Shown here piece after piece: positions 15,243 to 29,857 of a DNA stretch of 64,000 nucleotides. The stretch lies in contig NC_092659.1 in NCBI RefSeq assembly GCF_032118995.1, positions 9,341,177 through 9,405,176 on the forward strand, read 5' to 3'. The position numbers were made by a program, and so were the translations under genes. The notes beneath the pieces are model-generated. The model was not told the origin of the DNA. It saw nothing but the letters and a program-made list of their open reading frames with translations, and searched no databases. The DNA comes from Asterias amurensis. Taxonomy: Eukaryota > Echinodermata > Asteroidea > Forcipulatida > Asteriidae. The first letter of the stretch is position 1. Each line of letters starts with the position of its first letter.

Positions 15243-18200
15243 TTAGATAATTGCACAAACAGACGAAGATTTCTTTGGCTTTTCAGGAGCAGATTTGGGT
15301 CTCTCTGCTTGAACTACTTTAGCATGCTGAGTGCCATTGGCCGATCCTGGCCGTTCAGGTTTAATTAGAGTTTCTTCATGGTGAATTTTATCCGGGAAAT
15401 GTGTCAATGGGTTACCTTCCGTCTGTTCCATGGTCTGACTTGGCTTCTTAGTTACAGGTTGTTCTTCGGGTAGTTCCTCATGACAACCCTGTTCTGGTTG
15501 CTGATTGACGGACGAAGATTTCTTGAACTCTACAAGAGCCGGTTTGGGTCTCTCGGGTTCAACTACCTCATGTTGAGGGTCACTTGCTAATCTCGGCCGC
15601 TCAGGATGATCTGCTTCTTCCAGGTGATTTTCATCCGGGAGAGATGTCAACGATTTGTCTTCCGTCTGTTCCATGGTCTGACAGGGCTTCTTAGTTGCAG
15701 GTTGTTCTACTGGCATTTCGTCTTGTTCACGCTCCTCTACTGGTAATTTTCGCTGAATGACGAGTTCCTCAACTGCTGCGTGTTCTTTGAGCTTCTCCAG
15801 CAATTCATCAAATTTGTTGTCGGTGAATTCCTTCTGGGTTGACTCTTTTGTGAAGTCGATGTAGAGAAGCTGCGCAAAGGGCATGCTCATTGGACCTTCT
15901 GGAGGCCACGTCATCTGCTCCATGAGGATCGGGATAACGGGTTTCCTGAGGGCATCGGAAAGGCTGACCTCTCGACGACAGTTTGCAGAGAGGGCATACT
16001 TTGGGGTCACGCTAGAAATTACAACCTGTTGAGGAAAACAAGTTAATACATTTTACAAAGCTGTTATGGGTAGGAATGTTATGTCTGTTTAATGAGTAGG
16101 TATTCATGTCCGAGTGGCAAAGAGCATCGAATTTAAGTTCTGGTGGTTAAAGTCATCGTTGTGTGGGTTCGTGACACTTGTGTCCTTACAGCAAGATGCG
16201 TTACTATAAATGATTTTCTTCACACAGGAGTATAAATGGGTACCTGCCATAGGGTAGAGGTTGATATTGTAAATGACTAAGCCTTTAGAGAGCCACAGTT
16301 GGCAAGGTCGTGTACTCCCCAGGGAGCTGAGAAAGATCAAAGAAATTGATATTCACCCAATGGCCAGGGCACTAATGTAAAGCGCATTGTGGCGGTTATT
16401 GTGAAATGCGCTATATAAGAATTTGTTGATACCTTGGCATTCCTGATTCCTTTATCGATCTTCGAGTAGAGAGGATCTCCTCCACCCATCTGAAGGATAT
16501 CAAGCCAGCAGCTGAGCCCCAGTGATGTCAATCGAGAGTAAAGTCTCTTGATCTCAGTTTGTTTGTCCCATTGGTAGGAGATAAATACCTGCGGGATCAA
16601 CTCATCCACCTGTCAATGGGAAAATAATTGGGGGAAAAGGTTTGTAAAACCTTTAGGTTTTGTCTGGCTTTGAATGAAACACTTAGTTAGCAGATGTTAT
16701 TTTTTGTTTTACCCTTACACCGATGTGCGTACTAAAGGATTTGGGTACTTTTTTAAAAATGTCCATAGATTTACATTAAACTTACAGGGTTTGAAGATAA
16801 TGATAGTGGAAAGCTTCCCTTCAAACCTTACTTACTGAGGTGCTGTAGCTTTTGAGAAATGAGTAAAACAATGTCATGAAAATAAGTTTGTAAATGATGA
16901 GACGAAAATTATTTACATGACATGGTTTTACTCATTTCCCAAAAACTACAGCACATCAGCACGTAGTATTTTCAGGGAAGCTTTCTACTATCATTATCTT
17001 CAAACTATGTAAGTTTAGTGTAAATCTGTGGATATTGTGTTTTTTGTCCAACACAAGTTACATAGACCCTTTAAGGCACTGAGTAAGCACTGTATGTACT
17101 CAGTATTTTGAAAAGTACTGATATGAGTATACAGTGCTTACATAGCACATCGGGCTAAGGGCAAAATGTGTATGTTTCTAGTTTAAGACAATGTTTTACA
17201 GTAAAAAGAAATTTTCCTCAATGGTAGGACGATTAAAGATGACTTATAAATCTACTGTGATTTATAGAGTTGAGTTTTACCTGAACTTCTGATGTTGGAT
17301 TCTGAGTGGATGAGTTGGTTGATGGTTGAGTATCAGCTTTCTTGGCAACTTGAGGAAGGTCATCAATCTGGGGCACCCAGTTGCGATACTCTGTGTTTAT
17401 TGAGGAAGGAGAAAAAGGAACAAAAATAAGAAGAGGTAGAAAGACCACTTCCAACGACTGGCTCCATACTTAAGTACAGCTTTATGACTTCATGGTTGGT
17501 TTGTTTGCCAACTGTTTAACATTAACATGGCGGGTCACGGCCTAGCGGAATACAGAGCCCCAGATTCAAACTCTGTGTTTCTGATCAGCAGAGTATGGGA
17601 GAAAGAGTCCAAGTCTTTACACCTATGTCCTTAAGCAAGACACCTTCGTCCTTCGGATGGCATGTAAAGCCGTTGGTCTCGTGTGGTGTGTAATGTACGT
17701 AAAAGAGCCCAGTGCACTTTATCGAAAAGAGAAGGGGTTGGCCCCGGTGTTCCTGGTTGGGTTGGTAGCATATTGTGCCACAGCACCTTGTAAACCATGA
17801 TGCAATGTAAATGGAGTAGGTCTCATAATTCAAACGTGGTCCCAGATACCTTGTAGGATAAAAATGAATGGTACAGCGACTTGGGCGTCACTGAGTGACG
17901 GTTGTGCGCGCTATAAGAAGCCACTCTTTTATTTTATGTTTACTTGGTGAACTATGAGGAATTTAATTAAAACTTACCGTCAGTGATCATGTCTTCGTCC
18001 GGAGCAGCGTGGTAACTAATCTGTCCAAGTAACTCAGCAAACTTGGCATCTTCCCAAAGCTTGTCTCCTCTGATGTACTCCTTATCGTTATAAAGCTGAA
18101 TGTAGAGAAGCTGAGCAAACAACATACTCATAGAGCCAGCTGGTGGCCAAGCTGTCTTCTCAATGAGTACAGGGATAATTGGTTTGTTCAACAGGTTGGC

Positions 18201-29857: not shown

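Follow-up and report, generated by a model that had tools for sequence, protein, structure and literature searches.

We describe a gene in a 64,000-nucleotide stretch of the Asterias amurensis genome (NC_092659.1, positions 9,341,177 to 9,405,176; hereafter the window), whose 1232-residue product combines a solenoid related to Melted/VEPH1, a coiled coil, a Death domain, two TIR domains and a C-terminal CaaX box. The interpretation that we consider probable, though well short of certain, is that one functional gene encodes a modular intracellular signalling scaffold that is prenylated, related to Melted/VEPH1 and of the Death-TIR-TIR type. Positions are those of the window unless another contig is named.

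Exon borders were chosen from open reading frames and the sequence, and were then checked by a script for splice sites, phase and stop codons. The gene lies on the minus strand (29857..15243), with the ATG at 29857, the stop at 15243, and 17 exons in between; all of the 16 junctions are GT-AG with continuous phase, and the 3699 nt are translated into 1232 residues without an internal stop. When the genome (491.5 Mb, 23 contigs) was searched with the whole product at E <= 0.001, the matches listed included one other full exon set, a paralogue at C9:19783645-19773599, which has the same 17 exons in the same phases. Fifteen of the 17 exons have identical lengths; of the other two, exon 15 shows a difference of 3 nt, and the final one is shorter in the C9 gene. 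The script check and the C9 paralogue thus bear out the single 1232-residue frame of 17 phase-matched exons that the initial annotation had proposed, and confirm that the exons make up one gene.

It is extremely improbable that the model is an artefact, whether through the linking by eye of exons that belong to neighbouring genes or through the mistaking of a decayed copy for a gene: 17 of 17 borders and phases recur in the C9 paralogue, the introns of which align only in patches, and the ratio of nonsynonymous to synonymous substitution rates (Ka/Ks) is 0.02-0.28 across the domains. Seven of the 16 intron pairs show no match at all, and nine match in patches, the longest of which is 307 nt at 71% identity. 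Since the introns are patchy and the synonymous divergence (Ks) amounts to 0.37 for the first half as against 0.24 for the Death-TIR-TIR part, the two genes, which lie on different contigs, are old paralogues, and a reading as haplotype copies was rejected. A division into two genes was rejected as well, because the C9 introns at the critical joins are only 134 nt (coiled coil/Death) and 424 nt (Death/TIR1), which makes a mid-gene boundary implausible.

The domain searches agree with the domain order of the initial annotation, which is unlike that of SARM1 or MyD88. The Death domain, expected there at residues 625-705, is placed by Pfam at 632-705 (40.4 bits against a cut-off of 22.6, E = 3.3e-10), and its best match among solved structures is p75NTR (E = 4.4e-5). 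Two TIR_2 stretches follow from residue 729 (159.8 bits in all, cut-off 28, E = 5e-47); TIR1 and TIR2 are 51% identical to each other. In exon 11, a strong heptad pattern extends over residues 546-622, with aliphatic residues at 77% of the a/d positions and 13% elsewhere, a contrast that none of 20,000 shuffles equalled. Both TIRs and the coiled coil of the initial annotation are upheld. No Pfam family matches residues 1-542 at E <= 1, nor does SAM or PH match anywhere in the protein at the same threshold. A Pfam SlyX match at 556-606 (30.3 bits against a cut-off of 30), together with weaker coiled-coil families, was taken as a product of chance or coiled-coil composition.

Homology links residues of about 200-542 to the armadillo-like part of Melted/VEPH1, and common descent is much the best reading, because a sequence match is accompanied by shared phases at six of six exon ends. 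An N-terminal sequence of human VEPH1 matched the N-half and served as the query for the VEPH1 gene of this genome. The latter was found at C18:14659725-14656443, where three segments are 68, 69 and 51% identical to the query and two weakly matching segments 30-35%, and its six exons encode 373 residues. This sequence matches the window protein with 76.6 bits (one-sequence E = 1.6e-19, 22% identity over 341 residues), and a profile of the two paralogues matches it with 63.0 bits, as against 4.9 for the best of 500 VEPH1 shuffles. The exit phases are 2, 0, 1, 0, 0, 2 in both the window gene and VEPH1, and the exon ends fall at alignment columns 73/70, 122/121, 187/180, 237/237, 307/307 and 379/379 (window/VEPH1). 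According to the available sections of a 2019 review, VEPH1 has an armadillo-type fold at residues 57-337 (PMC6734325), and by this homology the N-half of the window protein is predicted to be helical.

Several points weigh against this derivation. Single exons searched against the VEPH1 locus gave a best tblastn E of 0.35, and the whole-protein search of the genome at E <= 0.001 did not list VEPH1; the signal is therefore spread over the assembled protein. The controls for the match were limited to shuffles and the search of PDB sequences, and exons 1-4, considered as a second VEPH-like unit, reach only E = 0.025-0.13. The identification of the C18 gene as VEPH1 comes from its N-terminal match; in a PH search of the genome, none of at least 36 matches lay near this gene, and none was on C12.

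The initial annotation had framed the protein as a SARM1-like one with SAM exchanged for Death. This framing does not hold, and a SARM1 derivative was rejected: searched against PDB sequences, the N-half gives no armadillo/HEAT protein among the matches listed, and its profile reaches none of the full-length SARM1 chains at E <= 10 although the library includes them (TIR1 matches them), whereas it matches the animal's own VEPH1 with shared phases. Two other matches of this part, to olivetolic acid cyclase (N-half, E = 0.029) and to a sakacin immunity factor (482-540, E = 0.44), were taken as chance.

The window and C9 genes would then be VEPH1 paralogues, at least for the solenoid. They share with VEPH1/Melted the homologous 341 residues and the six exon-end phases, and both kinds of protein probably act at membranes; the available sections of the review report preferential plasma-membrane localisation of Melted and VEPH1 (PMC6734325). 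VEPH1/Melted, however, has a C-terminal PH domain, in place of which the window protein has a CaaX box, and the latter adds the coiled coil, the Death domain and two TIRs. The same sections describe VEPH1 as single-copy, with no known paralogue in any species, so that, as far as they go, the two genes would be its first paralogues if the derivation is true.

Comparison of the window and C9 genes divides the protein into two parts. The Death-TIR-TIR part is under strong purifying selection, with Ka/Ks of 0.020 in the Death domain, 0.029 in TIR1 and 0.087 in TIR2, and the coiled coil has 0.097; residues 1-542 have 0.28, with an identity of 0.75 in exon 7, and the tail has 0.68 (90 aligned codons). 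The contrast between the N-half and Death-TIR-TIR is significant on rounded counts (Fisher p = 1e-7), and we read it as a diversifying input half joined to a fixed output half. A consideration on the other side is that the lower Ks of the C-half may reflect gene conversion, which would inflate the identity there.

In the genome, the searches gave at least 38 matches for TIR_2 and at least 105 for Death, and among those listed, inspected by eye, a Death domain followed by two TIR_2 occurs only at the window and C9 loci. Twenty other stretches with TIR_2 (6.5-10 kb) were compared with the window protein at E <= 0.01: only two, L021 and L023, match the window TIRs, and none matches the N-half, the coiled coil or the Death domain. 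L023 (C13:13430000-13437000, plus strand) contains a Death domain (6.9e-9) that precedes one TIR_2 (4.3e-20), and its TIR is identical to TIR1 at 62% over 55 residues of the first exon and 44% over the next. Like the window gene, this C13 relative has Death before TIR and a CaaX end; unlike it, it has only one TIR and a Death domain that, as judged by eye, is split by an intron, and no solenoid match was found in the 31 kb upstream. The TIR introns differ in position, TIR1 being split after the counterpart of the SARM1 glutamate E642 and TIR2 about 19 residues earlier; the C13 TIR is split in the same way as TIR2.

The C13 relative, as a Death-TIR protein, counts in favour of the possibility that the product is a MyD88-type adaptor, whose Death domain recruits IRAK/Pelle and whose TIRs dock Toll-like receptors, with the solenoid as a bystander. 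This alternative overlaps with the scaffold reading, and the placement of Death directly before TIR, as in MyD88, speaks for it. By Pfam, however, the domains are TIR_2 rather than TIR: the TIR family reaches only 15.4 bits on the protein, under its cut-off of 21.3, whereas TIR_2 is far above its own. In addition, the solenoid, the coiled coil, the second TIR of the tandem and the CaaX box are extra parts compared with MyD88, and as a full account of the protein we regard such an adaptor as rather unlikely.

A further alternative, related to the NADase activity suggested in the initial annotation, is a SARM1-like NAD+ hydrolase, in which the solenoid restrains the TIRs, the coiled coil and Death domain oligomerise, and cleavage of NAD+ leads to cell death. 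SARM1 is an ARM-SAM-SAM-TIR NAD+ hydrolase, and the window protein resembles it in that a solenoid is followed by an oligomerisation part and this in turn by TIR, with a distant similarity in TIR1. In favour of this alternative, the catalytic glutamate of SARM1, E642, has an aligned counterpart in TIR1 and TIR2 (and in the C13 TIR), and both TIRs are strongly constrained. Moreover, the PDB relatives of TIR1 include 3h16 ("TIR protein"), Cat1, AbTIR and SARM1 (E = 6.7e-4 for SARM1), and those of TIR2 are AbTIR and mainly other bacterial TIRs (no SARM1 among the matches listed). However, the glutamate is not diagnostic, since plain TLR TIRs also carry one at this position. At the position of SARM1 W638, TIR1 and TIR2 both have Asn and the C13 TIR has Ser; 3h16 and Cat1 have Trp in this column of the same alignment. 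In the available sections of a SARM1 study, all the mutants examined, including those of W638 and E642, lose 100- to 2000-fold in catalytic efficiency, W638 is placed among residues with a presumed role in multimerisation, and TIRs without the SARM1 loop are said to lack activity (PMC8266388). A TIR survey, in its available sections, assigns ligand binding to the corresponding Trp and Glu (PMC7075850). The window TIRs have no SARM1-type loop, but this is weak evidence because 3h16 and Cat1 lack it too.

On these grounds, assembly is favoured over catalysis as the likely role of the TIRs, and we consider the hydrolase unlikely. The window protein also departs from SARM1 in its solenoid, which has no detectable relation to that of SARM1, the presence of Death instead of SAM, the doubled TIR and the CaaX box. 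Note that a SAM search of the genome gave 29 matches, which did not pinpoint the SARM1 of this genome.

Both paralogues end in CAII, and their final 12 residues are identical within an otherwise fast-evolving tail. A random C-terminus of the same composition would fit a CaaX rule with a probability of about 0.0015 for a loose pattern and 0.0002 for a strict one, and identity of the last 12 residues in the fastest-evolving part of the protein argues that the CAII end has a function. A CaaX box with Ile or Leu as X points to geranylgeranylation, and known animal TIR adaptors reach membranes by other means. The C13 gene ends in CVVCSIL, of which CSIL fits the CaaX rule. The protein is thus probably tethered to a membrane by prenylation, as predicted from the motif, and the box, which is conserved in the C9 and C13 genes, speaks against its description as cytosolic. 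Against this counts the fact that the evidence is a motif only, and that inspection by eye supplied the last exon of the C13 gene. In the window gene, the tail (15243-16025) carries one segment twice (residues of about 1079-1145 and 1160-1232), and that of the C9 gene carries it once, partly as judged by eye; only the terminal copy in the window ends in CAII.

If the scaffold reading is adopted, the parts of the protein can be assigned as follows. The Melted/VEPH1-type armadillo-like solenoid would be the input or docking part and would bind a partner; the coiled coil would oligomerise; and the Death domain and two TIRs would assemble homotypically and recruit Death and TIR partners. The CaaX box very likely carries a prenyl lipid, which would hold the protein at a membrane, and the output step would be the clustering of Death and TIR modules. 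Self-assembly, as proposed initially, is plausible given the coiled coil, the Death domain and the two TIRs. A role in innate immunity is suggested by the domain types; against it stands the developmental and metabolic character of Melted/VEPH1 itself.

This last point leads to another alternative, namely that the protein is a developmental or metabolic regulator that retains Melted-like functions, with inputs from a receptor, TOR/FoxO or Hippo, and in which Death and TIR are mere assembly modules outside immunity. The homology of the solenoid to VEPH1/Melted is in its favour, and the available sections of the review report that the loss of Melted affects TOR, FoxO and Hippo signalling and that the N-terminal region of VEPH1 binds the receptor ALK5 (PMC6734325). 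However, it is the solenoid that evolves faster and the Death-TIR part that is frozen, and we hold this alternative to be decidedly unlikely. A bolder form of the scaffold reading, which we offer tentatively as possible but somewhat doubtful, is that melted/VEPH1 underwent duplication in the line of this animal and that its solenoid came to serve as input to a prenyl-anchored Death-TIR-TIR signalosome; a growth-control docking module would thereby have become an innate immune sensor, with tandem TIRs that nucleate a TIR lattice at the membrane.

In the available sections of the TIR survey, a "Group 18" of protozoan and invertebrate TIRs, 16% of them from echinoderms, is said to be alone among the eukaryotic groups in showing diverse architectures (PMC7075850), and the window TIRs probably belong in it. 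The descriptions of this group in those sections name no Melted-Death-TIR-TIR protein. About six TIR combinations are given for sea urchin and 28 for amphioxus (PMC7075850, PMC2575513), and the architecture was not found in the available sections of these two surveys. Among the papers listed by a literature search and judged by their titles and the openings of their abstracts, none dealt with such an architecture; since subscription papers and supplements were outside its reach, this does not prove that none exists. In the literature searched we found no co-mention of "VEPH1" and "TIR domain". We regard the protein as new among TIR proteins as a variant, and the origin of the solenoid as of more interest than the number of domains. 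If the scaffold reading is true, a developmental docking module was drafted into TIR/Death signalling, and a class that is probably lipid-anchored is added to the animal TIR proteins. With two paralogues whose output half is frozen and whose input half diverges, what the solenoid senses becomes a directly testable question.

Table 1. Exons of the window gene and its C-terminal motif (window positions; aa, residues of the product).
Feature	Position	Strand	Remarks
Exon 1	29688..29857	-	aa 1-56; start codon 29857-29855; kept in C9 paralogue
Exon 2	29138..29258	-	aa 57-97; kept in C9 paralogue
Exon 3	28258..28421	-	aa 98-151; kept in C9 paralogue
Exon 4	27138..27273	-	aa 152-197; kept in C9 paralogue
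Exon 5	25433..25572	-	aa 198-243; start of Melted/VEPH1-like region; exit phase 2, as in VEPH1 exon 1
Exon 6	24531..24660	-	aa 244-287; phases 2-0; matches VEPH1 exon 2
Exon 7	23380..23572	-	aa 288-351; phases 0-1; matches VEPH1 exon 3
Exon 8	22305..22450	-	aa 352-400; phases 1-0; matches VEPH1 exon 4
Exon 9	21746..21955	-	aa 401-470; phases 0-0; matches VEPH1 exon 5 (210 nt each)
Exon 10	21364..21581	-	aa 471-542; phases 0-2; matches VEPH1 exon 6 (218 vs 215 nt)
Exon 11	20775..21006	-	aa 543-620; coiled coil
Exon 12	19964..20237	-	aa 621-711; Death domain within this single exon (Pfam PF00531, E 3.3e-10; genome search, E 2.4e-8 here)
Exon 13	18705..18967	-	aa 712-799; first part of TIR1; terminal glutamate aligns to SARM1 E642
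Exon 14	17978..18209	-	aa 800-876; second part of TIR1
Exon 15	17281..17390	-	aa 877-913; linker between TIRs
Exon 16	16433..16609	-	aa 914-972; first part of TIR2
Exon 17	15243..16025	-	aa 973-1232, then stop; remainder of TIR2; rapidly evolving tail with internal repeat; CaaX end
CAII codons (CaaX prenylation box)	15246..15257	-	preceded by KPKKSSSV; shared with C9 paralogue

The genome searches also brought up other loci that combine TIR with further domains. At L021 (C20:4269500-4279499), one frame contains TIR_2 followed by SAM_2, and a further TIR lies about 3 kb downstream, possibly forming a TIR-SAM-TIR gene. At L020 (C17:5560000-5569999), a TIR_2 frame is followed 1.4 kb later on the same strand by Death, the reverse of the MyD88 order; the six-frame Death match contains one stop. 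At L042 (C12:19546500-19548500), repeats that look armadillo-like by eye precede a TIR of the same style, which may represent a separate ARM-TIR gene. Two equal-scoring copies of COX1 are present on the nuclear contig C5 (658874-660214 and 675294-676634) and, when read in the standard code, are interrupted by TGA alone among the stops, a codon for Trp in the mitochondrion; they are either recent nuclear mitochondrial insertions or an assembly error. In the mitochondrial COX1 of contig C23, AAA (8 codons), ATA (16) and AGA (6) stand at sites where translation table 9, the code of echinoderms and flatworms, reads Asn, Ile and Ser, in support of an echinoderm origin.

Within the window, frames for C-type lectins and an exon with OGFr_N flank the gene. 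The lectin frames, at 9155-9970 (minus strand, 2.2e-8) and 12781-13386 (plus strand, 7.8e-7), are on opposite strands and point apart, and a weak PAN frame, under the cut-off, is present at 13390-13716 (plus strand). The OGFr_N frame (opioid growth factor receptor conserved region) is at 36618-36881 on the minus strand (5.6e-14). Repeats include a 1-kb array of the hexamer TTATTG (1200-2220), a TTA array inside the Death/TIR1 intron (19565-19766), and minisatellites with units of 27 and 26 bases at 39338-39650 and 43841-44445, respectively.

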